DNA of 45,143 nucleotides from a virus: IMG/VR virus record IMGVR_UViG_3300050139_000038, positions 1 to 45,143 of that record; one strand, written 5' to 3'. A program made the translations under genes and the position numbers. The notes below the pieces were generated by a model, which saw only the letters and a list, made by a program, of their open reading frames with translations, did not search any database and was not told where the DNA came from. This document shows positions 24,110 through 45,026 of the stretch, one piece after another. Numbering within the stretch: position 1 is the stretch's first letter; each line of letters starts with the position of its first letter.

Positions 24110-25126
24110 ATGTTTACATTTCTCAAGTATCTATTAAGAACAGCAAATCCCCAACCAACAGGAGCATTACTAGATACACGTCCACCAGAACAGAAAACTA
24201 ATGATATCCATTTCAGTGAAATTGTAGCTAGTGCCAATGCTGTAAATTGGATAACCAAAGACTCCACAACGTGGAGAACCTTTCCAGCATTGAATCAATA
24301 CCAGACATTTATGTGCGGAGCCAACTCACTATCAAAAGCATGGGGCATATACCTTTCACAAAAATATGGAAAGTATGTACAACTTTCAAGAGGACATATC
24401 TATCAACGTCGAAAGAACCGACCAGGTGCAGGTATGGCACTATACGACATGTTCGACATTCTCAAGCAAGGAGCGACACTAGAACAATTAACAGGCGAGA
24501 ACATACAATCAGATGATCAGGCAGATTCGCTTGTGGTAGATCAACTTGAGGTTGCCGTGGGTCAAGGTTTTGCCACAACGGGCGGGGTATTCCTTCCAAG
24601 CGATATAGACACAATCGCTTCTGTGATCCAAACAACGGGCAAGGGTGTGATTCTTACGACATACTTTACAGCCGGAGAATGGAGTAAAACATTTCCAACC
24701 ATTGTAAATACCAACCTAGGATCACAAGACCCATCAGCTCTCCGTCATTTTGTGGTGGCAGTTGACTTCACTTTATACAATAACCAGAAGTGTCTTATTA
24801 TTGAAGATAGTGCATGGTTCGGTGGAATCAATAGGCGTATCATTTCCGAGGACTGGGTGACTCGTCGAGTCGTGGCTACGGGATACCTTATGACCTTCAA
24901 ATATGCACCACAACCAACGAAACCGACCTATGATGGCATAAGTATCATTTCGGCACAAAAGTGTCTACAGGCAGATGGAGATTTCCCTACCAATATATCA
25001 TTCATAGAAAATCTTGGACCTATTACTCGACAGTCACTGGTGAAGTTTCAGGTCAAATATGGATTACCTCAAACAGGGGCACTCGATATTGCAACTCAGT
25101 CGAAGTTACATCAGGTGTTTCCGTAG
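24110..25126 (+). CDS. Endolysin: papain-like peptidase plus peptidoglycan-binding domain, 338 aa
   Basis: Residues 55-262 look like a papain-fold cysteine peptidase: candidate nucleophile Cys69 in YQTFMCGANSLSKAWG, His213 in ALRHFVVAVDF, and Asp233 in LIIEDSAWFGG. Residues 277-336 form a PG_binding_1-type domain (ISAQKCLQADGDFP, TRQSLVKFQVKYGLPQTGAL). It has no signal peptide, so release should depend on the holin candidate 26 bp downstream. Peptidase plus wall-binding domain is a plausible endolysin layout. It is expressed from its own promoter in addition to any read-through. Confidence 0.7.
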   Translation: MFTFLKYLLRTANPQPTGALLDTRPPEQKTNDIHFSEIVASANAVNWITKDSTTWRTFPALNQYQTFMCGANSLSKAWGIYLSQKYGKYVQLSRGHIYQRRKNRPGAGMALYDMFDILKQGATLEQLTGENIQSDDQADSLVVDQLEVAVGQGFATTGGVFLPSDIDTIASVIQTTGKGVILTTYFTAGEWSKTFPTIVNTNLGSQDPSALRHFVVAVDFTLYNNQKCLIIEDSAWFGGINRRIISEDWVTRRVVATGYLMTFKYAPQPTKPTYDGISIISAQKCLQADGDFPTNISFIENLGPITRQSLVKFQVKYGLPQTGALDIATQSKLHQVFP

Positions 25127-25151
25127 GGGATTATTAATTAATATAACAAAC

Positions 25152-25382
25152 ATGGAACCAACAACAGCGCAAACAATAGGACCGACATCATTTTCGTTCG
25201 CGGGTATCAATTGGAAAAAGGTGGGTATGGGAATACTCTGTGCCGCTGCAGGTGCAGTGCTAACATATCTCACAGCATTCATTTCAGGACTTGATCTCGG
25301 TGCATTGTGGACACCGATCGTGATGACAGCGTGGACAGCAATATCCGTAGTCGTTCGTAAATGGGTGTCAGACAATGAATAG
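25152..25382 (+). CDS. Holin candidate, 76 aa
   Basis: Start chosen at 25152, because a frame open from 25059 would overlap the endolysin. Two hydrophobic segments: about residues 21-44 (VGMGILCAAAGAVLTYLTAF) and 50-68 (LWTPIVMTAWTAISVVV). They are flanked by a short N-terminus and a charged C-terminus (RKWVSDNE). Size, two-helix topology and position directly after the endolysin fit a class II-type holin. Function is inferred from architecture and context. Confidence 0.7.
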   Translation: MEPTTAQTIGPTSFSFAGINWKKVGMGILCAAAGAVLTYLTAFISGLDLGALWTPIVMTAWTAISVVVRKWVSDNE

Positions 25383-25393
25383 TCTGCTATAAT
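25365..25393 (+). promoter_or_regulatory. Extended -10 promoter overlapping the holin stop
   Basis: GTGTCA (25365-25370), 17 bp, then TATAAT (25388-25393) preceded by TGC, an extended -10. No start codon follows; transcription would begin at about 25400, at the base of the three-hairpin element. Confidence 0.5.
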
Positions 25394-25399
25394 TATAGA

Positions 25400-25466
25400 G
25401 CCGGAATCGACCCCGGCAGGCCTTATTGCTTCGGCCTAGCCACCCCCCTCTCTCGGGGGTGGCTTT
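25400..25466 (+). ncRNA. Candidate ~67-nt small RNA with three hairpins
   Basis: Directly after an extended -10 box lie GCCGG/CCGGC (25400-25417), AGGCC/GGCCT (25418-25437) and the terminator stem. They are end to end with no unpaired spacers, and there is no ORF. This could be an independently transcribed small RNA or just a compound terminator for the late operon. Confidence 0.45.
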
Positions 25467-25468
25467 TT
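25438..25468 (+). terminator. Strong intrinsic terminator of the late operon
   Basis: A 10-bp stem AGCCACCCCC/GGGGGTGGCT with a 7-nt C/T loop, followed by TTTTT. It separates the structural/lysis block from the early/middle block. Confidence 0.9.
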
Positions 25469-25470
25469 AG

Positions 25471-25518
25471 TTATCAACAGATGGGCGTTGACACAAAAGT
25501 CAATGGACATGGTACAAT
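25471..25518 (+). promoter_or_regulatory. Promoter of the early/middle block
   Basis: TTATCAACAG (25471-25480), a perfect -35 TTGACA (25488-25493) and an extended -10 TGGTACAAT (25510-25518), spacer 19 bp. An ATG begins 6 bp after the -10 (25525) and opens only a 4-codon frame, MQSS, whose TGA overlaps the ATG at 25536. Confidence 0.7.
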
Positions 25519-25535
25519 GTACACATGCAGTCATC

Positions 25536-25604
25536 ATGATTGCGTACGATGAAAATCGGATGGAACGTACTAGAACTAGCGATCAGAGAGTGAGGACTAC
25601 CTGA
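25536..25604 (+). CDS. Possible leader peptide, 22 aa
   Basis: MIAYDENRMERTRTSDQRV..., coupled by ATGA to the 4-codon frame at 25525, which itself lies at the predicted transcription start. Very short and without known relatives. It may be a regulatory leader or simply the 5' region of the early transcript. Confidence 0.25.
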   Translation: MIAYDENRMERTRTSDQRVRTT

Positions 25605-25677
25605 CACGTTAAGACTAGTATGTTCTATCGGGAATTCATCCCAGGTCGATATTTTAGAAGCAATAACAAAAAAGACA

Positions 25678-25842
25678 ATGAAGCAGACAATAAACTGGAT
25701 CGGGTACTTCGTGGGAATAGTGTTGTTAGTCGATATTGTGATTGTGACTTTCACAATTCTACAGATTGGGAATGGTGGACCAACACAACATATTGATTGG
25801 TGGGACAGCCAAATTCGATTAATAACAAGTATAATGAAATGA
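25678..25842 (+). CDS. Small membrane protein, 54 aa
   Basis: Residues 8-29 form one transmembrane helix (IGYFVGIVLLVDIVIVTFTI). A polar tail with several Trp and Asp residues follows. The TGA overlaps the next ATG (ATGA), so it is translated with the second membrane protein. Early position suggests a role in host takeover or superinfection control, but that is inference. Confidence 0.6.
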   Translation: MKQTINWIGYFVGIVLLVDIVIVTFTILQIGNGGPTQHIDWWDSQIRLITSIMK

Positions 25843-25991
25843 TCAAAACAAAAATAAACAGATACCACAAAAAACCACATACGATTCGTTCGTATCAGGA
25901 GAAGTTCATTACAAGACATGTATATCATAAGTTGGCCACCGCCATAGTCGTGGCAGTGGTAATCGTAATTCTAATATCAATATGGCGTTAA
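25839..25991 (+). CDS. Small basic membrane protein, 50 aa
   Basis: Start at 25839 by ATGA coupling; an upstream in-frame start at 25797 would overlap the previous gene. Basic N-terminus (MIKTKINRYHKKPH) and one C-terminal transmembrane segment (ATAIVVAVVIVILISIW). This predicts a tail-anchored protein facing the cytoplasm. It overlaps the next gene by 10 bp. Confidence 0.55.
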   Translation: MIKTKINRYHKKPHTIRSYQEKFITRHVYHKLATAIVVAVVIVILISIWR

Positions 25992-26227
25992 AATCATGGA
26001 ATATTTGTACGAAGAAGGATATGGGCGAGGGTAAGAAACCGTTTTGGCCTAGTATTGGTCGAATGGTATATTTCCCACCACAAGGAGAAAAGAAGGGAAA
26101 TTACTCAATTGAACTGAATATGTTTCCAAATACGAAGTTTTATGTATTCGAGATCGTGCCAAAACAGGACGAAGGATATCAAGCACCAGCACCAGATGAC
26201 ATATCAGCATCAGATGTGCCTTACTAA
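25982..26227 (+). CDS. Hypothetical small beta protein with acidic tail, 81 aa
   Basis: A beta-rich core (WPSIGRMVYFPPQ, YSIELNMFPNTKFYVFEI) is followed by a Pro/Ala linker and an acidic end DDISASDVPY. The acidic end with a terminal aromatic residue is reminiscent of the C-terminal interaction tail of single-stranded DNA-binding proteins, but the core is too short for a standard OB fold. Position at the head of the recombination genes supports a nucleic-acid role. Not firmly assigned. Confidence 0.6.
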   Translation: MALKSWNICTKKDMGEGKKPFWPSIGRMVYFPPQGEKKGNYSIELNMFPNTKFYVFEIVPKQDEGYQAPAPDDISASDVPY

Positions 26228-26241
26228 TAATCAATAATTCA

Positions 26242-26481
26242 ATGACAGAAGACAAGGTTATCAAATGTATAGATTGCCCAGAGAGTTTCACATTCACAGC
26301 CGAGGAGCAAGAGCATTACAAAAAGATGGTCGAGCAAGGTAAATTTACCGGACCATACACTGAACCAAAGAGGTGTAAGAACTGCCGAGTAAAAAGGAAA
26401 GCACTCAAACTTCAACGAGAGACAAAAGAAGCATCCCCGTTCACTCCGATCCTAAAAGAGATGAAGCACAAGAAGTACTAA
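26242..26481 (+). CDS. Zinc-ribbon protein, 79 aa
   Basis: CIDCPESFTFTAEEQEHYKK and then PKRCKNCRVKRK give the Cys-x2-Cys...Cys-x2-Cys pattern and the FTAEEQ signature of the 'probable zinc-binding domain' (zf-trcl-type) family found in many bacteria. The C-terminus is basic. Probably binds nucleic acid or protein; the cellular role of the family is unclear. It lies 1 bp before the next gene. Confidence 0.75.
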   Translation: MTEDKVIKCIDCPESFTFTAEEQEHYKKMVEQGKFTGPYTEPKRCKNCRVKRKALKLQRETKEASPFTPILKEMKHKKY

Positions 26482-26482
26482 C

Positions 26483-26908
26483 ATGGTCGAGAAGAACCTA
26501 CAGACTTTGTTCTCCGCATGGGTACGAGCAAACTCGGCATACTTTGTGAACTCAACAGTATGGGAATTGAAGATGGAGAAAGGAAACGCATTCGCATTTG
26601 ATCGTGTAGCAGAACATCAGGTCAACGCATTACTCCAAGCAAAACGAGAGGGATTGTATCACAAAATCAGCGATGTTCCAGTATCGTTCGGAGGCAAGAT
26701 GAGGTTTACATTGCAGAAGCCATGTGACTGCTTGTTGGTAAAAGGTGCAGATGCCTACGTGGTCATCTGCTTCTACAAAGTGAGACAACCAAAGGAGACC
26801 TTGTGGATTGACATCGAGAAGTTCCTCAAAGTAAAGGCCGAGTCACCAAGAAAGAGTTTGACCGAAGCAGAAGCAAAGTACATAGCAGACAGAGTGGAGG
26901 TCGTTTAG
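26483..26908 (+). CDS. RecU-like Holliday-junction resolvase family nuclease, 141 aa
   Basis: The pattern WELK (Glu28, Lys30), FAFDRVAEHQVNALL, LYHKISD, KPCDCLL and AYVVICFYK matches the RecU/'penicillin-binding-related factor A' branch of PD-(D/E)xK nucleases. In these the acidic residues and Glu-x-Lys bind the metal. It would resolve branched DNA before packaging or during recombination. It sits close to the annealing protein and exonuclease. Length is shorter than full bacterial RecU, as usual in phages. Confidence 0.6.
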   Translation: MVEKNLQTLFSAWVRANSAYFVNSTVWELKMEKGNAFAFDRVAEHQVNALLQAKREGLYHKISDVPVSFGGKMRFTLQKPCDCLLVKGADAYVVICFYKVRQPKETLWIDIEKFLKVKAESPRKSLTEAEAKYIADRVEVV

Positions 26909-30523: not shown

Positions 30524-30691
30524 ATGCTATTAGAATTTGAAAGGAAATCAAAAAAGAAAATGGTGGGTGTTAGGCTCACGGATGAGGAATATTCTGCTAT
30601 AGAAAAAGTGGCAAAAATGAACGAAGTTGCTATAATGGAAGCATCAAGACAGCTTATCAGGGCATCGTTAAAAGAACTAAAACTAATATAA
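30524..30691 (+). CDS. Ribbon-helix-helix transcription regulator candidate, 55 aa
   Basis: KKKMVGVRLTDEEYSAIEKV gives a basic N-terminal arm, the beta strand (MVGVRLT) and helix 1. AIMEASRQLIRASLKE gives helix 2. This is the layout of an Arc/CopG-type RHH dimer that binds DNA through its strands. It has its own leaderless promoter and its TAA overlaps the initiator ATG (TAATG), so it may regulate replication genes or its own promoter. Confidence 0.7.
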   Translation: MLLEFERKSKKKMVGVRLTDEEYSAIEKVAKMNEVAIMEASRQLIRASLKELKLI

Positions 30692-31398
30692 TGGCAACAC
30701 GTAGAATGTTCAGTCAGAGAATAGTTGGAAATGATCAGTTCCTTGATATGCCAATTTCAGCTCAAGCATTATATTTTCACCTCGGAATATATGCAGATGA
30801 TGATGGGTTCATCAGCCCACACAAAATCATCCGAATGGTTGGGGCAAACCAAGATGACCTGAAAGTACTCATAACCAAAAGTTTCTGTATTCCGTTCGAA
30901 AGTGGAGTAATCGTGATCACAAATTGGAAAGAGAACAACTATATTCAAAAAGACCGATATACACCAACAATTCACCAGACGGAGGCTAAAATGCTAGACT
31001 GTATACAAAATGTATACAAAATGTTACCACAGGATAGGTTAGAGTTAGGTAAGGTTAGAGTTAGGATAGGTAAGAGTAAGGATATAACACTAGCGCCTAA
31101 AGGCGCAGGAAAGAGAGTAAAGTTTTCAACAGAAGGAGCGGACGTAATAAAAGCTCTAGAGGATGTTGATCCAAAAAACAAAACCTACTACAACAACACT
31201 ACACAAAGATCCGCAGCAGACTTCCTAGTTGAACAATACGGTCTAGATCAGGTACTAAAAGTCATCAAAATACTTCCACAATCAAATCTCCAAAACTTTT
31301 GCCCCAATATAACAAACCCATACGAACTGAAAGAAAAATGGGGGAAACTTGCCACATCATTACAGAGATTAAAAAATAACCAACCAATATTACTATGA
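30691..31398 (+). CDS. Replisome-organiser-like replication initiator, 235 aa
   Basis: The N-terminus (residues 1-75: RRMFSQRIVGNDQFLDMPI, SAQALYFHLGIYADDDGFI, and a winged-helix-like KIIRMVGANQDDLKVLITK) matches the N-terminal domain of phage replisome organisers. These bind the origin and recruit the host helicase. The linker (about 100-150) is basic and encoded by tandem DNA repeats. The C-terminal region is helical and may be the loader-contact part, as in DnaD-like proteins. The phage has no helicase or polymerase that I can see, so recruitment of host enzymes is expected. Confidence 0.7.
   Translation: MATRRMFSQRIVGNDQFLDMPISAQALYFHLGIYADDDGFISPHKIIRMVGANQDDLKVLITKSFCIPFESGVIVITNWKENNYIQKDRYTPTIHQTEAKMLDCIQNVYKMLPQDRLELGKVRVRIGKSKDITLAPKGAGKRVKFSTEGADVIKALEDVDPKNKTYYNNTTQRSAADFLVEQYGLDQVLKVIKILPQSNLQNFCPNITNPYELKEKWGKLATSLQRLKNNQPILL
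31000..31021 (+). repeat. Two tandem copies of TGTATACAAAA
   Basis: A perfect 11-bp tandem duplication inside the initiator gene, containing the palindrome TGTATACA. GACTGTATACAA also occurs at 26951-26962 around the start site of the 26926 promoter. It could be an operator or initiator-binding element. Confidence 0.6.
31037..31081 (+). repeat. Three 16-bp iterons, candidate replication origin
   Basis: GGTTAGAGTTAGG at 31037 and 31053, and GGTAAGAGTAAGG at 31069, at exactly 16-bp steps. Since 16 is not a multiple of three, each copy is read in a different frame and encodes different residues, so selection must act on the DNA. A GCGCC-TAAA-GGCGC hairpin (31093-31106) follows. Iterons inside the initiator gene are known in lambda and lactococcal phages. 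Confidence 0.7.
31093..31106 (+). other. Perfect hairpin next to the iterons
   Basis: GCGCC-TAAA-GGCGC, 5-bp perfect stem with a 4-nt loop, 11 bp after the last iteron and inside the initiator gene. It may be part of the origin. Confidence 0.5.
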
Positions 31399-31766: not shown

Positions 31767-32233
31767 GAAAAAAAGAAGAAGCAAAACCAAAGATTCCGAA
31801 AAGTCGATACGAAGAACAATGGTCATTCCAAGACTATAAAGACAACGAGCCAGAGTTCAAACAAATGGCAGTCGAGTTGAAAGAATGTCTAGATCATGAA
31901 CACGGAAGTGTAGTCATGGCGAGATGGCTATGGCTTGAAAAACAAGGGGCGGTAAAGTTAACGGCGATCAACGGATTCTTCGAACCACTTGCACGAAAAG
32001 ATTATTCCATGTTTGCCGCAAAGTACGATCGATTCACGGAGTGGCTGGCATTCCGAGAAAAGAAAGACCCGAAATATGATGAGATGCTCGCCGAGGTATT
32101 AAAGTCCGGCAGAGCAAAGATAGGAGTGATTTCAAAAAAGGTCGATAAGGAAACAGAAAGTTTAGAAGCACTAGCCCAAACTGAAATACATAATGACCCA
32201 GTCGCAGAAGAAGTATCAGATAATATACGCTGA
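31763..32233 (+). CDS. Hypothetical protein, 156 aa
   Basis: Lys-rich N-terminus (MRKKEEAKPKIPKSRYEEQW), helical body with VVMARWLWLEKQGAVKL, and an acidic C-terminus that overlaps the methylase start by 41 bp. No catalytic motif is seen. Its position between initiator operon and methylase suggests a DNA-related role, but this is not shown by the sequence. Confidence 0.6.
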   Translation: MRKKEEAKPKIPKSRYEEQWSFQDYKDNEPEFKQMAVELKECLDHEHGSVVMARWLWLEKQGAVKLTAINGFFEPLARKDYSMFAAKYDRFTEWLAFREKKDPKYDEMLAEVLKSGRAKIGVISKKVDKETESLEALAQTEIHNDPVAEEVSDNIR

Positions 32234-32804
32234 TCCACCATGGTCATATAACGATAAGATGTCTGGACACTCTTTTTCTCTAGATCATGAATATTCCACA
32301 CAGAGTAAAAATTGGATTTGTGGTTTACCAGTGGGGGGGGTAACGGATACTAATTGTGTTTTGTTTCTCTGGGCAGTATCTCCACTTTTACCAGAAGCAT
32401 TTGAAGTTATGAAGGCGTGGGGTTTCAAGTTTAAGACAGTTGCATTTGTTTGGAGTAAAAGACACAAAGACGGAAACCCTGTATCTAACTTGGGTAGATG
32501 GACAATGGGAAATGTTGAATTATGTTTGCTGGGTACAAAAGGATCACCAAAAAGACAATGCAAGAATATTAAGCAATTGGTGGAAGATTACAGATCAGAA
32601 CATTCCAAAAAACCAGACTCGATTAGGGATATGATTGTAAATTTAATGGGAGACATTCCTAGACTAGAGTTATTCGCTAGAGATAGAGAGGGGGCTGATT
32701 TATTTGGAAAGGATCGTTTTGAAGGGTGGGACGTATGGGGAAATGAGGCAAAAAACAGTATAAAAATAACTGTGGATAACTCGCTTGCAAAGAATACGCA
32801 ATAG
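32193..32804 (+). CDS. MT-A70-type adenine methyltransferase, 203 aa
   Basis: The hallmark DPPW is at residues 14-17 (YQIIYADPPWSYND). It is followed by the family features CVLFLWAVSPLLPEAFEVM, WGFKFKTVAFVWSK and a C-terminal LELFARDREGADLF region. Such enzymes methylate adenine at N6 in DNA; in phages they protect against restriction or mark DNA. A full-length compact version. The overlap with the upstream gene is 41 bp. No partner restriction gene is nearby, so it is an orphan methylase. Confidence 0.85.
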   Translation: MTQSQKKYQIIYADPPWSYNDKMSGHSFSLDHEYSTQSKNWICGLPVGGVTDTNCVLFLWAVSPLLPEAFEVMKAWGFKFKTVAFVWSKRHKDGNPVSNLGRWTMGNVELCLLGTKGSPKRQCKNIKQLVEDYRSEHSKKPDSIRDMIVNLMGDIPRLELFARDREGADLFGKDRFEGWDVWGNEAKNSIKITVDNSLAKNTQ

Positions 32805-32819: not shown

Positions 32820-32960
32820 ATGAACAAAGACACAAATATCAGGGTATTCAAAGAAGACTTGGAAATGTTGCGTAAGATTTCAAAGAGGGAAGGTCGAACA
32901 TTGAAATCTATGTTCAAAGTAGTTTTGAAGTATTGGAAAGAAGAAAATGACCAAACTTAA
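32820..32960 (+). CDS. Ribbon-helix-helix protein candidate, 46 aa
   Basis: A short strand (NIRVFKEDLEML) then helix 1 (LRKISKREG) and helix 2 (TLKSMFKVVLKYWKEE) fit a CopG/Arc-type RHH dimer, the second in this genome. It has its own leaderless promoter and overlaps the HNH gene downstream by 14 bp, suggesting it arrived with, or regulates, that segment. It could act as a repressor at the box next to its own promoter. Confidence 0.6.
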   Translation: MNKDTNIRVFKEDLEMLRKISKREGRTLKSMFKVVLKYWKEENDQT

Positions 32961-33561
32961 TCAAACGTGGGTAAGACAAGTTCCATTCAAAGAAAGACCA
33001 AAAGCAAAAGGCAGAAAAGTGTGGAACAAGGGAAAGAAAATGTCAGAAGATTGGATAAGGAAAAATAAGGAAAGTCATATAGGAATTAAACATTCTGAAG
33101 AATGGAAAGAAAAAATGAGAAAGATCGCCAAAGAAAGAGGATTTGGAAAATGGATGAAAGGAAGAACTGGTGAATTGAGTTATCAATGGAAAGGAGGAAA
33201 GGAGGCTTATCCAAGATGTGTAGACTGTGGAAAGTTATTATCCACACCCAACTATGTCAGATGTGATTTATGTGTTCGCAAATATAGAGTGGGTGAAAAT
33301 CATCCAAACTGGAAAGGTGGAATATCTTATGAAGAATACTCGGTTGATTGGAAAAGTAGTTTGAAGATAAGTATCAGAGAGAGGGATCATTACACTTGTC
33401 AGGTTTGTGGAGAAAAACAAGGTGATGTAACGCACCACGTTCACCATATAGATTATATTAAGACTAATTGTAATCCAGAAAATCTAGTCACTTTATGTGT
33501 AAAATGTCACATGAAAACAAACTATAATCGTGAATACTGGAAAAAATATTTCACAAGATAA
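32947..33561 (+). CDS. HNH homing endonuclease with NUMOD3 motifs, 204 aa
   Basis: The N-terminal part has NUMOD3-type elements (WNKGKKMSEDWIRKNKES, GIKHSEEWKEKM). A zinc ribbon follows (CVDCGK...CDLCVRK), then a second Gly-rich linker, and the HNH domain: YTCQVCGEKQGD, THHVHHIDYIKTN and LCVKCH. Both Cys pairs and the catalytic His/Asn positions are present. It is a typical free-standing homing endonuclease of phage genomes, next to the methylase and RHH genes. Confidence 0.85.
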   Translation: MTKLNQTWVRQVPFKERPKAKGRKVWNKGKKMSEDWIRKNKESHIGIKHSEEWKEKMRKIAKERGFGKWMKGRTGELSYQWKGGKEAYPRCVDCGKLLSTPNYVRCDLCVRKYRVGENHPNWKGGISYEEYSVDWKSSLKISIRERDHYTCQVCGEKQGDVTHHVHHIDYIKTNCNPENLVTLCVKCHMKTNYNREYWKKYFTR

Positions 33562-34000: not shown

Positions 34001-34324
34001 ATGAAACACGACACCATAATTAAAGAGTTTGATGAGAAGTTTCCTGTTCAAGAACACTACTTAGAAGAAAGTGTAAAGTCACAAATGAAAGCTTTCCTCC
34101 TCAAATCCCTCAAATCCCAACAGGAGGAGCATGAAAAAGAGAAAGAAGAAATCAAAGAGGATTGTGATGCCGCAATGACTAGACATGATGAGGAGGCGGT
34201 GAAGATGATTGAGGGGATGAAGTATGAAGAACAACACCTTGGAAGTCCAAATATTAAACCAACAGAGATGTTTGAAAGAGGATTCAATTCAGCAATTATT
34301 CAAATTATAAACAAACTAAAATGA
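34001..34324 (+). CDS. Coiled-coil protein, 107 aa
   Basis: Residues 25-80 form a Lys/Glu coiled coil (LKSLKSQQEEHEKEKEEIKE). The C-terminal part (GSPNIKPTEMFERGFNSAI) is globular. No family recognised. The stop overlaps the next tiny membrane gene (ATGA). Confidence 0.55.
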   Translation: MKHDTIIKEFDEKFPVQEHYLEESVKSQMKAFLLKSLKSQQEEHEKEKEEIKEDCDAAMTRHDEEAVKMIEGMKYEEQHLGSPNIKPTEMFERGFNSAIIQIINKLK

Positions 34325-34395
34325 CATTAGGAATAATAGCTTTAGCCCTAGCATGTTTCTCATTAGGTTTCTCATTGCGAGGATTATTAAAATGA
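34321..34395 (+). CDS. Tiny membrane peptide, 24 aa
   Basis: MTLGIIALALACFSLGFSLR then GLLK: one hydrophobic helix with a basic end. Coupled by ATGA to the previous gene, which supports translation. Too short to classify. Confidence 0.45.
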   Translation: MTLGIIALALACFSLGFSLRGLLK

Positions 34396-34434
34396 CCCCC
34401 ATTACCAGCGAGAGAATAATATAATAAAAAGGAT

Positions 34435-34611
34435 ATGAAAGAATGTATATGCAAAGATGAATTGATGATAGATAAGGTGTATTGCCATTTGGCATGGTGT
34501 CCCCATAGTTACGTTTACAAACGAGATGTTGAAGAATATGAAAACCTGAACTGGTTTTTGAAACTATTTCGTCGTGACCCTAGAAAGTATTATAACTATT
34601 TACAACTCTAA
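34435..34611 (+). CDS. Small Cys/His protein, 58 aa
   Basis: MKECICKDELMIDKVYCHLAW contains CICKD...CH...CPH, a possible zinc site, followed by a basic, Tyr-rich C-terminus (KLFRRDPRKYYNY). TATAAT at 34420-34425 lies 9 bp before the ATG with AAAAAGG in between, so a near-leaderless transcript or a weak ribosome-binding site is possible. Confidence 0.55.
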   Translation: MKECICKDELMIDKVYCHLAWCPHSYVYKRDVEEYENLNWFLKLFRRDPRKYYNYLQL

Positions 34612-34625
34612 TACACCCCCACACC

Positions 34626-35057
34626 ATGAAAAATAATCTAACAGAGCATGTGCAGAGTTTGAGAGAAAGGCTTGCAGAAATCGAGCATGAGCAATGGATT
34701 GCTTGGAGTAAGGACATTGCAAAGACCGAAGGCATATCAGAAGAAAGATTTATAAGGTGGCAGAAATTGTGGCGTCCATACAATGAACTTACAGAAGTGG
34801 AGAAAGACCAAGACCGAGAATGGGGCGATAAGGCTTTCCTCTCCCAGTTGAAGACTATTGAGCTTTTGAAAGAGGAGTTGGAGGGAAGAATGAGTGAACT
34901 TGAAAAGTACCCATTTTTTTCTCAAAATTGTCCTCGTATGAAGGAGCAAGGTTGGTGTGAGAGTTGTGCAGAAATAACTGGAAGGATAAGTGAACTTAAA
35001 AGAGCCATCACCCTCCTAGACACTATTATTCAAGAGGTTAAATCACAAATGAAATGA
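34626..35057 (+). CDS. Coiled-coil protein with Cys motif, 143 aa
   Basis: Helical with charged repeats (e.g. SLRERLAEIEHEQWIAWSKD). A NCPRMKEQGWCESCAEITG segment near residue 105 could bind zinc. The end (LLDTIIQEVKSQMK) is homologous at DNA level to the 18-residue gene at 35399. ATGA coupling downstream. No known function. Confidence 0.55.
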   Translation: MKNNLTEHVQSLRERLAEIEHEQWIAWSKDIAKTEGISEERFIRWQKLWRPYNELTEVEKDQDREWGDKAFLSQLKTIELLKEELEGRMSELEKYPFFSQNCPRMKEQGWCESCAEITGRISELKRAITLLDTIIQEVKSQMK

Positions 35058-35221
35058 AAAAATACGAAGTCCTATTAAACTGCAATGGTTTCAAGGTGGT
35101 AACCGTTGAGGCAAAAAACAAAGAAGAAGCTAAGGAACTGGCGATGAGTAAAATGTCTCATTCAGACCACGGAGAGTATGAGTTCGGCGAGTTTTTATCA
35201 ATCGAGAAAATTACTCACTAA
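35054..35221 (+). CDS. Small alpha/beta protein, 55 aa
   Basis: MKKYEVLLNCNGFKVVTVEA, then a helix (NKEEAKELAMSKM) and a strand (YEFGEFLSIEKI): a compact beta-alpha-beta pattern, as in small ferredoxin-like or DUF-type phage proteins. Coupled by ATGA to the previous gene. Confidence 0.55.
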   Translation: MKKYEVLLNCNGFKVVTVEAKNKEEAKELAMSKMSHSDHGEYEFGEFLSIEKITH

Positions 35222-35234
35222 TCTAATAACAAAT

Positions 35235-35402
35235 ATGATGAATAGACAAGAAATATATGATGCGATACAAAAGGTAATTAAAGAGTGTACTAATCTCGAC
35301 GGGCACATCCGAGCTGATAATTTTAGGAAAGAATTGTTAATAGAAGTGTTCCCAGAGATAGATGATACAGAAGGGTTACTAACCTCACATAACAAATCAT
35401 GA
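35235..35402 (+). CDS. Small hypothetical protein, 55 aa
   Basis: Double ATG at 35235 and 35238; the first is taken. Helical and charged (RQEIYDAIQKVIKECTNL). A frame open from 35178 overlaps the preceding gene and is not used. ATGA overlap with the next tiny frame. Confidence 0.45.
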   Translation: MMNRQEIYDAIQKVIKECTNLDGHIRADNFRKELLIEVFPEIDDTEGLLTSHNKS

Positions 35403-35455
35403 CCTCAAACTTCCTAGACACTATTATTCAAAATATTAAAACACAAATTAAATGA
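35399..35455 (+). CDS. Mosaic 18-aa peptide gene
   Basis: MTSNFLDTIIQNIKTQIK. Its first 19 bp (35398-35416) equal 35882-35900, the start of the later 149-aa gene. Bases 35412-35431 equal 35014-35033, the end of the 143-aa gene, and similarity continues to the stop. It looks like a recombinant joining one gene's start to another's end, so it may be a deletion remnant rather than a functional gene. Confidence 0.4.
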   Translation: MTSNFLDTIIQNIKTQIK

Positions 35456-35520
35456 ACATCATCTTCCTATTATCTTGTTGCCTATTATTCCTTGTATTGA
35501 TTATAATAAGAAGTGCCTAA
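35452..35520 (+). CDS. Tiny membrane peptide, 22 aa
   Basis: MNIIFLLSCCLLFLVLIIIR then SA: one hydrophobic helix containing CC. Coupled by ATGA to the preceding frame. Similar in style to the peptide at 34321. Confidence 0.4.
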   Translation: MNIIFLLSCCLLFLVLIIIRSA

Positions 35521-35532
35521 TATACAAATGAA

Positions 35533-35691
35533 ATGAAAAAAGTTATCAAAGTAATATATGAATGTGGGTGTAAAGAAGTGATACCTGAACATGGATTAAC
35601 TGGTGGTGTTCGTTGTCCTGAACATCACAGACAACAAACCAATGAAATTACTAGGGAATGTCCTAAAAAGACAGATATAATTGGAAACTAA
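35533..35691 (+). CDS. Small zinc-binding protein, 52 aa
   Basis: IYECGCKEV and RCPEHHRQQ give a Cys-x-Cys...Cys-x2-His-His pattern, a likely zinc site. Its N-terminus (MKKVIKVI) follows an ATG without Shine-Dalgarno. No function known. Confidence 0.5.
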   Translation: MKKVIKVIYECGCKEVIPEHGLTGGVRCPEHHRQQTNEITRECPKKTDIIGN

Positions 35692-35692
35692 T

Positions 35693-35881
35693 ATGACCAA
35701 TGACGAAACAAATGTATTATCTAGAATGATTCTAGAATATCAGACACAGAAAAGTTACCCATTCGGCGGTTCTGCAATGCTCTGTGCGATAGATAATTAT
35801 GTAACAAAAATGGAAACAAAATATCAAAACATGACGCCAATAAGAAAAATAGCAAATCACTTATTATTTGAATTAAACTAA
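35693..35881 (+). CDS. Small hypothetical protein, 62 aa
   Basis: Start at 35693, 1 bp after the previous stop; an in-frame upstream start at 35681 is less likely. Helical (NVLSRMILEYQTQKSYPFGG, then YQNMTPIRKIANHLLFEL). Not recognised. Confidence 0.5.
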   Translation: MTNDETNVLSRMILEYQTQKSYPFGGSAMLCAIDNYVTKMETKYQNMTPIRKIANHLLFELN

Positions 35882-35882
35882 C

Positions 35883-36332
35883 ATGACCTCAAACTTCCTA
35901 CAAGTCGGTAGAACAGTGAAGTGCGGACATTGCGACCCTAGTCTACAAAAGATAGATGACGTTGTGCCAGGAATGGTATGTGAATGTATTTGCCATGATC
36001 AACTTCCATGTGGTTGTACAGCAGAACAACATGATGCCTTTATGTGTTGTCCCAATAATAGAAAACCTCTAAAAAAGAAAGACCTCAACAAACTTAGACA
36101 GAAGATGAAGCCTAGTGACTTCAAGAATCAAACGACTGCAAGCACCCCTCCTGGCACTTGGTACACTGGAGAACGTTGCCCCCACCTCCACCTAGCAGAT
36201 ATGCAAGCGTTCCTACCGTACTTTATAGATGCAGAGTTCAAGAAAGGTAAGAGTAAGAATAGGGGTATGGCGATATTGCATGTAACCTTATTCTTGGATT
36301 GGTGTAAGAAAAATGTCAAAATCAAGAAATAA
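35883..36332 (+). CDS. Cys/His-rich protein, 149 aa
   Basis: N-terminal zinc-ribbon-like part: VKCGHCDPS, CECICHD, CGCTAEQHD and CCPNN. It is followed by a basic helix and a C-terminal domain ending LFLDWCKKNVKIKK. Many Cys pairs indicate one or two zinc sites. A degenerate copy of the last 17 codons is found at 36435-36485. Its start shares 19 bp with the tiny gene at 35399. Function unknown. Confidence 0.6.
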   Translation: MTSNFLQVGRTVKCGHCDPSLQKIDDVVPGMVCECICHDQLPCGCTAEQHDAFMCCPNNRKPLKKKDLNKLRQKMKPSDFKNQTTASTPPGTWYTGERCPHLHLADMQAFLPYFIDAEFKKGKSKNRGMAILHVTLFLDWCKKNVKIKK

Positions 36333-37770: not shown

Positions 37771-38285
37771 TGACAGCAAATCTCGATGAAATGAAGAAAG
37801 CACTTGAAACCATCTCTAAAGGGGATGGAGTAGATAAGTCTATAACACACGCAGTCAAGCCACAGAAAAATCCAAACATCCAAAAAGACGAGAATGGAAT
37901 TAAAATAGATAGGAGGCATTTCAATAAACATAGTCCAGGATCGGGCAGAAAGACTCTAGAGAAGACTATAATCAACAAAGGCATAAAGGAATGGATGGAC
38001 GACCACGCTAGTGAATTGGTGGATATGAACCTGATAGACAAGAAGACTGGTAGACAGGTGACAATCAAGAAGCCCCGCCGAGTAGCCGTTATAGAGAAGA
38101 TATTCGAGATAGGAATGAAAGGAGATCGAGTGATAGGAAATGTGGCGGCTCTCAAAGAATGGATGGATAGGTATGCTGGAAAAGCCAGCCAACCTATTCG
38201 TGGAGAGGGAGAGGATTCGCCAATCAGGTTACATGTCGATAACTTGGATAGAATATTAGAAAAAGCATATGGTAATGAAGATTAA
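37770..38285 (+). CDS. Terminase small subunit candidate (TerS), 171 aa
   Basis: Basic N-terminal half with a possible helix-turn-helix (TIINKGIKEWMDDHASELVD). Then come VAALKEWMDRYAGKASQPIR and an acidic C-terminal end (VDNLDRILEKAYGNED). The 'GKASQPIRGEGED...LDRILEKAYG' ending is typical of small terminase subunits, which recognise phage DNA and hand it to TerL. It is followed by an HNH gene and then TerL, so the homing gene has split the normal TerS-TerL pair. Confidence 0.65.
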   Translation: MTANLDEMKKALETISKGDGVDKSITHAVKPQKNPNIQKDENGIKIDRRHFNKHSPGSGRKTLEKTIINKGIKEWMDDHASELVDMNLIDKKTGRQVTIKKPRRVAVIEKIFEIGMKGDRVIGNVAALKEWMDRYAGKASQPIRGEGEDSPIRLHVDNLDRILEKAYGNED

Positions 38286-38835
38286 AAACCACTGGTTGGG
38301 TAGGAAACATACTATGGCGAGTAGGCGTAAAATGAGCGAATCACGAAAAGGAAGAATTATAGGACCAGAATGGAGAAAACATATGAGTGAGGCAAAACAG
38401 AGGCAGAGAATACGAGATGGATATATCCTTTCACCAGAGGTAAGAAGAAAAGTAAGTGAATCAAAGAAGGGAATACCACGACCAGAATGGGTGAAGGTAA
38501 AATTGAGAGGAGCAAACGGTGGAGGATGGAAAGGTGGTGTATCGACAATAAACCACTTGATACGAGAAAATATTAAATATCGTCAGTGGAGATCAGATAT
38601 ATTTCATAGGGATGATTTTACATGCAAGATGGGAGGGGAGCGTGGTGGAGTATTAAATGCTCATCATATAAAACCATTGTCGTTAATTATTAAAGAGAAC
38701 AATATAAAGACCCTAGAACAAGCTTTGGTGTGTGAGGAAATATGGGATTTGAATAATGGAATAACCGTCTGTGAGAAATGTCACAGATTAACCGAAACAT
38801 ATGGTACGAGAACAAAACATAACAAGATGTATTGA
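38269..38835 (+). CDS. HNH homing endonuclease between TerS and TerL, 188 aa
   Basis: NUMOD3-like N-terminus (WLGRKHTMASRRKMSESRKG, then GPEWRKHMSEAKQ), a Gly/Trp linker (GGWKGGVSTI), and an HNH domain: FTCKMGGERGG, NAHHIKPLSLI, NNGITVCEKCH. The second Cys of the first zinc pair is Gly (CKMG instead of Cys-x2-Cys), which may weaken zinc binding; the His/His and Asn positions remain. It overlaps TerS by 17 bp and TerL by 35 bp. Start may be 38269 or 38275. Confidence 0.8.
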   Translation: MVMKIKNHWLGRKHTMASRRKMSESRKGRIIGPEWRKHMSEAKQRQRIRDGYILSPEVRRKVSESKKGIPRPEWVKVKLRGANGGGWKGGVSTINHLIRENIKYRQWRSDIFHRDDFTCKMGGERGGVLNAHHIKPLSLIIKENNIKTLEQALVCEEIWDLNNGITVCEKCHRLTETYGTRTKHNKMY

Positions 38836-41086
38836 TACGGCTGTCGAAGCTGGGTCACCTATGGATCAAGTTAAACAGTTTATTGAATGTTCTTACATTC
38901 CATACGAGTGGCAATGGCGATTTCATTCAGCATGTAGGGAAGCAGACAGGGCAGATGGACCAGTGGATATAGGGCTAGGAGGTGCAAGAGGACCGGGAAA
39001 GAGCCATGCAGTACTCTCACAGGCCGCTTTAGATGACTGTCAAAGGGTTAAGGGGCTCAAGGTGCTCTTTTTACGCCAAACAGGACAGAGTGCCAAGGAG
39101 TCGTTCGATGACCTCGTGGCGAAGACCCTATTGGGTCATATCGTGTATTGGAAAACACAGAACTCATTGAGGTTCGAGAATGGATCGAGGATCATATTGG
39201 GGGGGTTCAAAGATGAGCGGGACATCGACAAGTATATCGGTATCGAATACGATCTAATCATTGTCGAGGAATTGACACAACTTACGCAAGCCAAGTATGA
39301 GAAGCTTCGGGGATCATTGAGAACATCAAAACCAAATTGGAGACCGAGAATGTATACATCATTCAATCCAGGAGGGATAGGTCACACATGGGTCAAGGAA
39401 AGATATGTAATACCATTTAGATTAGGAGAGCAGAATATAACTCGATTTGTGCCATCAACGTACAAAGACAACCCAGCACTCAACAAAGAGTATATCGAGT
39501 ATCTAGAGGGATTACAGGGCGATCTAGGGCGTGCGTGGCGTGAGGGAGACTGGGATCTGTTCGAGGGTCAATACTTCGCAGAATGGAGACGAGACAAGCA
39601 TGTGTGTGAACCGTTTGAAGTCCCGGACACATGGCCAAAGTTCAGGTCAATAGACCCGTCAGGACGTTCAGGTATTACATCATGTCACTGGTACGCTGTA
39701 GATCGTGATGCAAGGGTATGGGTGTATAAAGAGCATTACTGCACGGGAATGGACATGGATGAGCATGCCGAGCAAATCAAGAAGATGTCGTTTGATAGGG
39801 AGGGAAATGCCGAGAGATATCAATACACGGTCATGGATTCGGCGGCGTGGGCAAAAGCCGGATACGCCGAGACTGGGATAGAGATTTACATGCGACATGG
39901 AGTAGGTGTGGATGAGCAGTTGATCGCTTCAGACAAACACAGATTGGTTGGTTGGAACGTTGTGCATCAGTATTTACGCATTGACAAACCAACTGTGGAT
40001 AATCCCAACCCACAACCGAAACTCAAAGTGTTTAAGACGTGCTACAATATGATACGAACAATCCCAGAATTAAGACATGATGAACTTCACCCCGAGGATG
40101 TGGACTCGAAAGGTGAAGATCATTGCTTGACAGGAGATACGCTCGTTGATACTAACAAAGGACAAAAGATGATTAAAGATTTGGTTGGTAAAGATGGCAG
40201 GGTAGCCACCCTTGTTGGGTGGAAAAACTACCGCTCAGTTAGGATGACAGCACAACAACAAGAGATATTCAAAGTAACACTTGGTGATGGACGAAGTTTC
40301 AAAGCAACAGCAGATCACAATGTACTTACCGATAAGGGTTGGAAACAAGTGAAGACGCTTGATTTGGTACACGACAGTGTGATATGCTTAGATACATGGA
40401 AAAACCCATTATCATTTCAAGAACAATCCAAGAGTTTGAAGGAATCAGATACTATCTTTGCGGGAAATACTTCCAAAGGAAAGGACGCAGACTTCATGTT
40501 CGGGTATGGACGAGCGCTCATGGAAAAGTGGAGGGAGGATATCATGTCCATCATAAGGATAACGACAGATCAAACAACAGTATTGGAAATCTGGAAAAAC
40601 TATCTAGGTTCTCCCACCTCTCCCTTCATGCAAAGTTACCAGAGAATCGTAGAGCATCTGCGGAACGCATCGTTAAATACGCAGTACCAAAAGCAAGAGC
40701 ATGGCACGCCACAGCAATTGGATCAGAATGGCATAGTGAACACGCAAAAGAAAGTTGGAAACACTGGAAACAATATACAAAAAGATGCAAAGAATGTAAG
40801 AGAAGATACACAACCTATTTTCCAAGCAGATCGAAGTTCTGCCATCTTAATTGCAAAATGCGAGCCTTGCGGGAAAGAAGACGTCTACAATCTCACAGTT
40901 CCTAGTGTTAAGCACTTCTCGATAAATGGTGGTATTATAGTTCATAACTGTGGTGATGAACTCAGATACTTTCTTCAGACACTCCGAGAAGGCAAGGCTC
41001 CAAAACTTGAAAACGCTATTGAAAAGAGAATGAGACAAGCACAAGAACAGGAGACAAGTTACAATTTCAACTATACTCGCAACTAA
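38801..41086 (+). CDS. Terminase large subunit (TerL) containing an intein, 761 aa precursor
   Basis: ATPase: Walker A GARGPGKS (residues 61-68) and Walker B LIIVEEL (Asp151-Leu158 region). Nuclease: DPSGRSG (Asp285) and VMDSAAW as acidic positions; the third lies in the conserved EDH-x-x-DELRY motif. An intein (residues 442-716) interrupts that motif exactly after EDH; splicing would restore EDHCGDELRYFL and give a 486-residue enzyme of normal length. TerL packages phage DNA into proheads. An internal ATG at 38861 is an alternative start that avoids the HNH overlap. Confidence 0.9.
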   Translation: MVREQNITRCIDTAVEAGSPMDQVKQFIECSYIPYEWQWRFHSACREADRADGPVDIGLGGARGPGKSHAVLSQAALDDCQRVKGLKVLFLRQTGQSAKESFDDLVAKTLLGHIVYWKTQNSLRFENGSRIILGGFKDERDIDKYIGIEYDLIIVEELTQLTQAKYEKLRGSLRTSKPNWRPRMYTSFNPGGIGHTWVKERYVIPFRLGEQNITRFVPSTYKDNPALNKEYIEYLEGLQGDLGRAWREGDWDLFEGQYFAEWRRDKHVCEPFEVPDTWPKFRSIDPSGRSGITSCHWYAVDRDARVWVYKEHYCTGMDMDEHAEQIKKMSFDREGNAERYQYTVMDSAAWAKAGYAETGIEIYMRHGVGVDEQLIASDKHRLVGWNVVHQYLRIDKPTVDNPNPQPKLKVFKTCYNMIRTIPELRHDELHPEDVDSKGEDHCLTGDTLVDTNKGQKMIKDLVGKDGRVATLVGWKNYRSVRMTAQQQEIFKVTLGDGRSFKATADHNVLTDKGWKQVKTLDLVHDSVICLDTWKNPLSFQEQSKSLKESDTIFAGNTSKGKDADFMFGYGRALMEKWREDIMSIIRITTDQTTVLEIWKNYLGSPTSPFMQSYQRIVEHLRNASLNTQYQKQEHGTPQQLDQNGIVNTQKKVGNTGNNIQKDAKNVREDTQPIFQADRSSAILIAKCEPCGKEDVYNLTVPSVKHFSINGGIIVHNCGDELRYFLQTLREGKAPKLENAIEKRMRQAQEQETSYNFNYTRN
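40124..40948 (+). other. Intein within TerL, 275 aa
   Basis: Block A: CLTGDTLVDTNKG, starting at Cys1. Block B: FKATADHNVLTDKGW with the T-x-x-H element. C-terminal blocks: DVYNLTVPSVKHFSINGG, then IIVHN with terminal Asn and a following Cys+1. All residues needed for standard splicing are present. The middle third in this frame has no LAGLIDADG or HNH signature; instead an HNH gene is encoded there in another frame. Insertion in an active-site motif of TerL is typical of inteins. Confidence 0.85.
40384..40905 (+). CDS. HNH endonuclease nested out of frame inside the intein, 173 aa
   Basis: A second reading frame wholly inside the intein encodes IRYYLCGKYFQRKGRRLHV, then GGYHVHHKDNDRSNNSIGNL, the classic HNH_3-type core with catalytic His and Asn. 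SHLSLH follows, and a C-terminal zinc finger (KRCKECKRRY...FCHLNCKMRAL). Both this frame and the intein frame are open for over 500 bp. Alternative start at 40396. It could be the homing nuclease of the intein, translated separately from the host protein. Confidence 0.8.
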   Translation: MLRYMEKPIIISRTIQEFEGIRYYLCGKYFQRKGRRLHVRVWTSAHGKVEGGYHVHHKDNDRSNNSIGNLEKLSRFSHLSLHAKLPENRRASAERIVKYAVPKARAWHATAIGSEWHSEHAKESWKHWKQYTKRCKECKRRYTTYFPSRSKFCHLNCKMRALRERRRLQSHSS

Positions 41087-41098
41087 TTACAAACCAAT

Positions 41099-43345
41099 AT
41101 GGCAAAAAAAGAAAAAGTCATCGGATCACCAGAGACAAAAGGCAATCTGCCCGATAAGGACATCGAGAAAAGACTCAAAGACAAAAAGACTGTCCCTGAG
41201 TTCGCACCAAACTCCACTGAACGGGTGACAGCAAGTTACATCAAGAAGCGATCAGGTGAGATGATAAAGTTTAGACAGCAACTCAAAGTCGAGGGTCGCT
41301 GGAGAGAAGCAGATCAAGAATACTTACCACATGAACTGGACTTTGGCACAACTCGCAAGAGATTTGAAACTGATCAGGATACAGGATTACGTTCACGAAT
41401 GGTACCAGTGGGAGATATCACACAGCAATGGAGACAAGCTTCAAGTTCTCCTACTCTCTTGGCGAAAATACAAACAGCAATCGGTCTTATCATTGACCAA
41501 ATGCCAGAGGCAGAGCTTGTTCCGCTTCTTAAGAGATACCAAGCGACTACAGACATGGCATATGCGCTATGGAAAAGGAACTGGCAAATCAGTGGATCAA
41601 AAGACAAATTGAAAATGACAGTATTTAACATGTTTAAGTATGGTTGGACTGTTCAACGTACGTTCCCACACAAGTATTCGATACCAAAGCGTGTGAGAGT
41701 GACTGTGGATACAGAAAACCCTGAAAAGGATACATATGAAGAACGTGAAATTGAGAGATATAACGACGTGGATGTACAACCACTCGATCCGTTCAGAACA
41801 TGGATTGATGAGATGACCTTGCCGTACCAGCCAGAGACTATGAAAGAGTGTTACTACGAAGTTGACATGGACTACGACACATTCATGACTGAATACGGTG
41901 ATTATCCGAACGCAAAGTTCGTACCGCCAAATTCATTCATGCAACGTGGTGAAGAAGAATCAAAAGTTAGACTTGGCGGAACGATCCGAGACAACACGAA
42001 TGCTGACATCAAAGAGCGTACAGACATCGTGACTGTGGGTATATTCGAATCAATCCGCAAAGACTTATTCAGTATTTACATCCCAAAGTGGAACATCCCC
42101 GTGTATGTTAGTCCCCTACCAAACGATGAGGGGTATTTGTCGATTACGCACACGATGTACATCATTCGTTCAAGTAAACTTCCGTATGGTATCTCAATCT
42201 GGGAAATCATCAGACAAAACAAAGGACTATACGACAAGATGAAGAACATGACGTTCGATCAGCTCGTGCTATCGATCATGAAGTCATTCTTCTACTCGGG
42301 GACGAATATGAACCTCGGTGACGGAAAGATAATGATCGTGCCAGGTGAGGGTAGACAGATAACTTCATCAACAGGAAAGCCTGAAATCACATGGAACGAA
42401 GTCCCTGGACCAGGCAAAGAAGCGTGGGAGGGTATGAAAGCTATCCAGGACATGATGGATGATGACACGGGTATCACACCAACACTTGAGGGTGAAATCA
42501 CAGGCAAGACGCTCGGTGAGATACAGCTCGCCCGTGAGGCGGCACTGCATCGTCAGAAGATTCCATTGGATAACATTGCATGGCTTATTGAGCAAGATGC
42601 ATATCTCCGTCTCTCATGGATGTCACAACTCTACACTATCCCCACAGTCAAGGATTTCACCGATGAACAGGAACTTATGGATTATGAGAAAGAGAATCAG
42701 ATCGAACATTCTGAGTTATTCCAAGAACAGTCAAGTGATGGAAACCCAGAGCCAAAGATTACAGCAACATACTTGCCACAATTATCGCTTCATCTATCAG
42801 ATTCCGAAGGGAAGTTGGTTGCGGGAAAAGAGTCGCAGTTCTATCAGTTAGGTCACAAGAAAGGTCAGATACATCCCCGTCAACTAAAGTGGAAAGGTAT
42901 ATTCAAAATCATACCAAGGTCGATCATTGATTCATCGCAGACACTGGTGCATGCGGCGAAAATGGAAATGGCAAACTTACTTGTGCCTTTGCTATCAAGT
43001 CCATTACCAAACGCAATGCAGTTACTAGCCAAGATCGCAAAGCAGATCATTAAGGTACATGAGGAGGATGAAAAGGATTGGTTACCAGATACATGGGTCG
43101 ATTTTCTGGAGAATCCGGAGGCACAACAGCCTCAACAGCCAGGAACAGGGGGTCTACCACCCGGACAAGGGGCGCCACAAGCGCCAGGACAAGCCCAGAC
43201 GCAAGGAAACCCTCAAGGTGGGTCAATGCAAGGTAATCAGGGAATGGCGCCGCCACAAGCACCTACGGCAGTACCAAGAGGACAAGTTTCATCTGGCACC
43301 CCACCCCAGTCAGGTCTAGGTTCTATATTCCAAAAAAAGCTCTAG
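41099..43345 (+). CDS. Portal protein, 748 aa
   Basis: Length and position right after TerL fit a large podoviral (P22-size) portal. Features: a helical N-terminal part (ASYIKKRSGEMIKFRQQLK), a wing domain, the long helices of the stem/crown (e.g. IWEIIRQNKGLYDKMKNMTF, GKTLGEIQLAREAALHRQK), and a Gln/Gly/Pro-rich disordered C-terminus from about residue 670. The portal forms the dodecameric gate through which TerL packs DNA. No intein or frameshift is seen here. Confidence 0.85.
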   Translation: MAKKEKVIGSPETKGNLPDKDIEKRLKDKKTVPEFAPNSTERVTASYIKKRSGEMIKFRQQLKVEGRWREADQEYLPHELDFGTTRKRFETDQDTGLRSRMVPVGDITQQWRQASSSPTLLAKIQTAIGLIIDQMPEAELVPLLKRYQATTDMAYALWKRNWQISGSKDKLKMTVFNMFKYGWTVQRTFPHKYSIPKRVRVTVDTENPEKDTYEEREIERYNDVDVQPLDPFRTWIDEMTLPYQPETMKECYYEVDMDYDTFMTEYGDYPNAKFVPPNSFMQRGEEESKVRLGGTIRDNTNADIKERTDIVTVGIFESIRKDLFSIYIPKWNIPVYVSPLPNDEGYLSITHTMYIIRSSKLPYGISIWEIIRQNKGLYDKMKNMTFDQLVLSIMKSFFYSGTNMNLGDGKIMIVPGEGRQITSSTGKPEITWNEVPGPGKEAWEGMKAIQDMMDDDTGITPTLEGEITGKTLGEIQLAREAALHRQKIPLDNIAWLIEQDAYLRLSWMSQLYTIPTVKDFTDEQELMDYEKENQIEHSELFQEQSSDGNPEPKITATYLPQLSLHLSDSEGKLVAGKESQFYQLGHKKGQIHPRQLKWKGIFKIIPRSIIDSSQTLVHAAKMEMANLLVPLLSSPLPNAMQLLAKIAKQIIKVHEEDEKDWLPDTWVDFLENPEAQQPQQPGTGGLPPGQGAPQAPGQAQTQGNPQGGSMQGNQGMAPPQAPTAVPRGQVSSGTPPQSGLGSIFQKKL

Positions 43346-43348
43346 GTG

Positions 43349-43357
43349 TGGTATAAT
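43349..43357 (+). promoter_or_regulatory. Extended -10 leaderless promoter after the portal gene
   Basis: TGGTATAAT; the -10 ends 6 bp before the ATG at 43364, in the string TGGTATAATAAAGACATG. It is nearly the same as at 37409 (TGGTATAATAAGACCATG). No TTATCC box is visible here. Confidence 0.65.
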
Positions 43358-43363
43358 AAAGAC

Positions 43364-43564: not shown

Positions 43565-43565
43565 C

Positions 43566-43844: not shown

Positions 43845-43872
43845 GTAATTATTAACAACTAACAAAACTATT

Positions 43873-44172: not shown

Positions 44173-44173
44173 C

Positions 44174-45018: not shown

Positions 45019-45026
45019 ACAGACAT

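Follow-up and report, generated by a model that had tools for sequence, protein, structure and literature searches.

A probable three-module replication origin nested in the replisome organiser gene of an uncultivated phage

The linker of a replisome organiser gene in an uncultivated phage contains an element of three modules, which is very probably the replication origin of the phage, nested in the gene of its own initiator. The element comprises direct 11-bp iterons, a tract nearly free of C residues, and a hairpin (Table 1), and it would place the origin to about 110 bp in the window, by which we mean the whole stretch of DNA analyzed, a 45,143-base virus record. What the compared sequences show directly is that the modules exist and are conserved, that they do not depend on the reading frame, and that the iterons are paired with the N-terminal domain of the organiser. 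An earlier note on this DNA had also proposed an origin here, bound by the product of the gene in which it lies. The nesting in the initiator linker was borne out by comparison with relatives, whereas the 16-bp units to which the note assigned the binding were not.

The product of the host gene matched PHROG 8489 (E = 1.3e-52) and PHROG 5708 (E = 3.1e-51), both DnaD-like helicase loaders, over approximately residues 1 to 110. Its N-terminal domain shared 53% identity over 103 aa with Tuc2009 Rep (E = 3e-36), and the homologous gene of Tuc2009 carries the database annotation 'contains origin of replication', which supports the nested-origin reading. The relatives in phage records were replisome organisers of phages of Streptococcus, Lactococcus, Lactobacillus, Enterococcus, and Brochothrix. 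In a fold search, the best PDB match of the N-terminal domain was chain C of 5kbj, a RepA_N plasmid initiator-DNA complex (E = 3.1e-3, probability 0.98, TM 0.48), and 4pta, 4pt7, and 4pql were also among the top ten matches. A PDB sequence search with profiles of the N- and C-terminal domains gave nothing significant. The C-terminal domain had no match in a Pfam scan of the window protein and no significant match in a fold search with the full-length model; it is probably the contact for the helicase or a helicase loader. The origin DNA coincides with the linker that is disordered in the AlphaFold2 model (residues 110-141). A 55-aa ORF at 30524-30691, whose end overlaps the start codon of the organiser gene (TAATG), encodes a product with a faint likeness, below the cut-offs, to RelB-type/DUF6290 small proteins and is possibly a regulator of the replication gene. 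Three genes 3' of the initiator gene lies a gene for an MT-A70 type adenine methyltransferase (32193-32804).

Table 1. Positions of the organiser gene, its domains, and the modules of the probable origin in the window
Feature	Position	Strand	Evidence
Gene hosting the origin; replisome organiser of 235 aa, a DnaD-like helicase loader	30691..31398	+	PHROG, Tuc2009 Rep similarity
N-terminal winged-helix DNA-binding domain (aa 1-104)	30691..31002	+	AlphaFold2 pLDDT 92.9, fold search
Iteron 1, TGTATACAAAA, probable initiator-binding site from sequence	31000..31010	+	Family PWM 13.7 bits
Iteron 2, TGTATACAAAA	31011..31021	+	Family PWM 13.7 bits
Iteron 3, degenerate, TGTTACCACAG	31022..31032	+	6.0 bits, exact 11-bp phase
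Linker codons (aa 110-141), mostly origin-encoded, predicted disordered	31018..31113	+	AlphaFold2 pLDDT <50
C-free tract, 5- and 6-bp steps, probable unwinding element by analogy	31031..31087	+	Repeat scan, TRF, resampling
Hairpin GCGCCT-AA-AGGCGC, third module of the origin	31093..31106	.	Folding; relatives
Helical C-terminal domain	31114..31395	+	AlphaFold2 model; domain also joined to unrelated N-terminal domains

A 19-nt unit was present in three copies in the linker, starting at 31031, 31047, and 31063, with a spacing of 16 and 16 bp and 89-100% likeness; the copies placed earlier at 31037, 31053, and 31069 are this array in the register of GGTTAGAG. TRF reported a period of 16, 3.4 copies, and a score of 80 for the array, and AGGTTAGAGTTAGG with at most two mismatches occurred three times in the window, always in the array (0.23 expected). 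The repetition exists at the DNA level and not at the protein level, as had been argued. When the protein was fixed and codons were drawn from 26 of the remaining genes in the window, none of 20,000 resamples (mean 16.3) attained the observed 16-bp self-match of 32. The same protein-fixed resampling gave P = 0.007 for the lag-11 self-match and P = 0.0006 for the codon segment of 57 nt at 31030-31086, in which one C was found against 6.9 expected. The duplication of TGTATACAAAA 5' of the array, also claimed earlier, was confirmed as two exact and adjoining copies with no further copy in the window. The third iteron, TGTTACCACAG, occupies the place of the terminal iteron of the family, TGGATACACAG, which borders the tract (compare L003, L005, and L067). 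A competing iteron array was not found in a repeat scan of 34300-36000, 25100-26500, 43300-45143, and 1-1000. Cumulative GC skew, which had been suggested as evidence for the origin, rose across the whole window without a switch at the site and was uninformative either way.

Viral contigs were scanned with the N-terminal domain, and 80 loci were kept of 526 relatives, with 80 of 311 in a more distant set; 167 complete genes were reduced to 125 by dereplication at 80% identity. The three-part element was present in the linker DNA of most of the 125 relatives, so that the conservation expected in the earlier note was observed, though the 16-bp period was shared by few of them. A motif model of the iteron converged on TG[T/G]ATAC[A/C]AAA and located 418 sites in 118 genes, at a density of 34 per kb in the linker region compared with 3.7 per kb over the remainder of the genes, the model having been fitted on the same data. 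The mean was 3.5 sites per gene, compared with two good iterons and one weak one in the window, where the iteron has a palindromic core, TGTATACA; many sites of the family are asymmetric (TGGATACA and others). The spacing of adjacent sites was exactly 11 bp in 263 cases and 22 bp in 15, and all three codon phases were in use (168/138/112). In per-gene synonymous shuffles that kept the gene's own codons, which have lower power than resampling, lag-11 repetition reached P < 0.01 in 42% of the genes. The four-mer content of the iteron region was correlated with N-terminal domain distance (Mantel r = 0.47, P = 0.0005) and showed no correlation with C-terminal domain distance (r = 0.04; partial r = -0.01). 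The C-terminal domains of the relatives formed many clusters, and one N-terminal domain family was joined to many C-terminal domain families; the correlation of iterons with the N-terminal domain may in part reflect physical linkage. Judged by the sequences, the 11-bp direct repeats are likely to be the initiator-binding iterons, and it is this repeat, treated earlier as an accessory, that is the conserved one of the family.

The tract directly adjoins the last iteron, and an overlap of 2 bp is the commonest arrangement in the family. In the window it runs in the steps AGGAT AGGTT AGAGTT AGGTA AGGTT AGAGTT AGGAT AGGTA AGAGTA AGGAT..., and its score was 28, against a mean of 10.6 and a maximum of 21 in synonymous resamples. 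The tract of the family consists nearly throughout of A, G, and T (C, 0.5%) in 5-bp steps of AGGAT, AGGTT, and AGGTA, and in 91% of the 125 genes its score was above that of every one of 60 synonymous resamples made from the same gene. In shuffles keeping the gene's own codons, P < 0.01 was obtained for the C-free run in 43% of the genes and for lag-5 repetition in 68%. Tract codons were nearly invariant across amino acids (Leu TTA, 157 of 158; Arg AGG or AGA, 189 of 189), a contrast that is inflated because the tract was picked partly for lacking C and of which the resampling with the same search is the fair version. Tracts were alike in phages with differing 11-mers, such as TGTCAACCA in L018 and TGTATCCAAAA in L014. 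In lambda ori, iteron binding opens an adjacent A+T-rich stretch of 40 bp (PMC5043065), and by analogy the C-free tract is probably the unwinding element.

The GCGCC/GGCGC hairpin reported earlier 3' of the array was also found. As DNA it had a stability of -6.0 kcal/mol (z = -3.4), which was equaled in 0 of 200 shuffles. A perfect 14-nt hairpin had P = 0.045 with the protein fixed; the window hairpin alone is therefore marginal, and the weight rests on the relatives. A perfect stem with a score of at least 16 was present 3' of the tract in 44% of the relatives and in 6% of control stretches from the same genes, and the hairpin scores differed from those of the controls with a Mann-Whitney P of 1.8e-17. 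The hairpin was missing or weak in approximately 40% of the relatives. Of 118 regions, 16 had an AA loop, compared with 2 of 623 controls; no region had a TT loop, and TAAC and ACAAG were recurrent. Among close relatives, stem covariation yielded few clean compensated pairs (L015/L016 and L151/L168), most pairs being too distant to align.

The stem of the hairpin differs from phage to phage, and its place is constant even with unrelated N-terminal domains. A scan with the C-terminal domain retrieved relatives whose unrelated N-terminal domains were of the lambda-O type, PF04492 (L010/L101 and L110), of HTH_36 (L111 and L113), or of other DnaD-like families (L007/L100, L102, L103, and L105). 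Each of these relatives had different linker repeats. At 70-112 nt 5' of the conserved C-terminal domain anchor, a hairpin score of at least 15 was reached in 11 of 15 genes compared with 7 of 183 controls (P = 1e-10). L010/L101 and L110 encode chimeric initiators in which a lambda-O-type N-terminal domain is followed by linker repeats of their own and the window-type C-terminal domain. In L105 (1036-1779), the initiator linker is a G-poor hexamer tract of AATTCT repeats encoding NSNSNSNTNT, and it resembles the AATGAC/NDNDND linker of Oenococcus phages (PMC12403621).

From these features we infer binding, melting, loading, and a role of the hairpin as follows. The winged-helix N-terminal domain would bind the direct iterons at 31000-31032, which, at a distance of about one helical turn, would present their sites on the same face of the DNA. 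The iteron-bound assembly may then strain and open the adjacent C-free/G-free tract, whose strong strand asymmetry would allow the specific capture of one opened strand. The C-terminal domain, tethered through a flexible linker encoded by the origin DNA, would recruit the replicative helicase or the protein that loads it. The hairpin, probably on the minus strand, may mark a site of entry or arrest for helicase, primase, or unwinding.

The 16-bp units at 31031-31084 could instead be the initiator-binding iterons, with the TGTATACAAAA pair as an accessory, as in the earlier note, and they are indeed three good frame-shifting copies that protein repetition does not explain. However, their period is composed of steps of 5, 5, and 6 bp, and the units are thus tract steps and not the conserved binding repeat of the family. 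The 6-bp step (TAGAG[AT]TAG) occurred in 20 of the 125 relatives, a 15-bp period being typical elsewhere, so that the indivisibility of the period by three is a local accident. The repeat with fixed spacing and independence of the frame is that of 11 bp, and the tract is similar across phages with different 11-mers, whereas the 11-mer region varies with the N-terminal domain. The 16-bp units are therefore improbable as iterons, and the roles of binding and unwinding given earlier to these parts should be exchanged. It is scarcely credible that there is no origin and that the linker is a low-complexity sequence, with repeats arising from selection on a basic, RLGKVRLGKD-like protein or from slippage. 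The 15-bp tract period does entail peptide repeats (VRLGK) in most relatives, but the 11-bp repeats lie in all frames, the tract score stood above synonymous resampling in 91% of the genes, and codon choice was nearly fixed whatever the amino acid, although this last point is partly biased by the picking of the tract.

Two further explanations concern the hairpin and the exchange of domains. The hairpin is part of a coding sequence, and its loop shows a strand bias (AA, 16; TT, 0), as might be expected of an mRNA element, such as a translation pause, a processing site, or an attenuator, that is not a part of the origin. In an exploratory, post hoc test, however, stems with one sense-strand A.C mismatch were enriched 2- to 8-fold, whereas those with one G.T were not enriched. 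A sense-strand A.C corresponds to a G.T on the minus strand, which is a hint of folding in the minus strand and speaks against a hairpin in the sense mRNA. In addition, a promoter and terminator scan found no terminator and no terminator-like T run, its promoter matches being uninformative, and an Rfam search gave no match. We regard an mRNA element as unlikely. The joining of one N-terminal domain family to many C-terminal domain families, and of one C-terminal domain to several N-terminal domains, could mean that the linker is chiefly a recombination hot spot for initiator-domain exchange, with repeats kept for that purpose; domain shuffling has also been reported for the replisome organisers of Oenococcus phages (PMC12403621). 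We give this explanation very little credence, because the iterons follow the N-terminal domain instead of being common to both partners, and an initiator that moves along with the sites it binds, as happened in plasmid pPR9 (PMC5703833), explains the swap.

An origin nested in the organiser gene has close counterparts. According to the introduction of PMC8965321, the organisers of Tuc2009 and TP901-1 bind direct repeats within their own genes, and these repeats act as ori. The P335-type lactococcal organisers (Tuc2009 Rep/orf16 and r1t orf11) share with the window a homologous N-terminal domain, direct repeats of 11 bp within the organiser gene, a C-free tract of 5-bp steps, and, in r1t, a hairpin at the same place in the linker. 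They differ in the letters of the iterons, and 6-bp steps are a feature of the window tract. The C-terminal domain of Tuc2009 Rep is PF06926 Rep_Org_C (E = 2e-44), whereas the window protein had no such match; Rep_Org_C does not define the wider class, since C-terminal domains vary among the relatives. The link to the experimentally defined origin of Tuc2009 stands at the gene level. TP901-1 rep/ori resembles the window in the repeats inside the organiser gene that PMC8965321 reports as ori, but a comparable tract or strong hairpin was not seen in TP901-1 rep. TP901-1 Rep was rejected as a sequence homologue, having no detectable similarity to the window protein.

Lambda ori, in gene O, has the same plan, namely an N-terminal DNA-binding domain, linker iterons, a purine- and A-rich tract, an imperfect inverted repeat, and a C-terminal domain (PMC6022878, PMC5043065). 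The imperfect inverted repeat, ATTCGTCAGA/TCTGGCGAAT inside gene O, was read by eye. The lambda iterons are inverted repeats of 18-19 bp that bind dimers, whereas those of the window are direct repeats of 11 bp, and a Pfam scan of the window N-terminal domain gave no match to Phage_rep_O (PF04492). By homology of sequence, the window origin is to be placed with the Tuc2009/r1t type, with a lambda-ori-like mode of working outside the lambda O protein family. In the RepA_N plasmid initiators (pSK41 and pPR9), which have DnaD-like domains and the nearest PDB fold to that of the window N-terminal domain, ori is central in rep, and in pPR9 the N-terminal domain and ori were replaced together as a block (PMC5703833). 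The fold similarity is modest (TM 0.48), however, the window protein had no match to the RepA_N domain (PF06970) in the Pfam scan, and PMC5703833 describes no such C-free tract or hairpin. The window also resembles the DnaA-trio/DnaD recognition element of Bacillus subtilis oriC in having a strand-asymmetric tract of short steps beside initiator sites, and its G-free strand resembles the DnaD-bound strand of that oriC (PMC10201434). The DnaA-trio steps are 3 bp, whereas those of the window are 5 and 6 bp, and the initiators differ, so that this is a resemblance only. Identity with the DnaD recognition element was rejected in favor of analogy, the trinucleotide steps being absent from the window tract. 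TCCT and TACT were noted by eye on the minus strand of the tract as instances of the 5'-TnnT-3' motif, which occurs in pairs in the DnaD recognition element and is too short to exceed chance.

The arrangement of an origin within the initiator gene is already known from phages of dairy bacteria; what is less familiar is that the hairpin is conserved and that domains are exchanged. We tentatively suggest, as a possibility that we hold at somewhat below even chances, a widespread class of phage origins with exchangeable modules in one gene: an N-terminal binding domain accompanied by iterons of its own, a tract with strand asymmetry, and a hairpin that acts on the minus strand. The hairpin would stay with the C-terminal domain when the N-terminal domain, iterons, and tract are replaced, lambda-O-type replacements included; its stem would be free, its place fixed, and its plus-strand loop A-rich, and it might serve as an entry site for helicase or primase or as a boundary of unwinding. 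If this rule for the hairpin is true, it offers a testable answer on helicase and primase entry at initiator-encoded phage origins, with the natural domain swaps available as a test set. Looking for 11-bp iterons, a C-free tract, and a hairpin within the linker of DnaD-like organisers also provides a recipe by which origins can be located in hundreds of phage contigs that lack annotation.

Several other features were observed in the window. Two genes encode HNH-type endonucleases (38269-38835 and 32947-33561), the former of which has a NUMOD3 motif and runs into the 5' end of the terminase gene. The gene of the terminase large subunit (38801-41086) contains an intein, with matches above the cut-offs for the N-terminal splicing region (TIGR01445, residues 442-510) and the C-terminal one (TIGR01443, residues 694-717); the intein starts with CLTGDTLVDT and ends with HFSINGGIIVHN, followed by a cysteine. 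An in-frame tandem repeat of 30/60 bp lies in a large structural-protein gene at 16440-16617.
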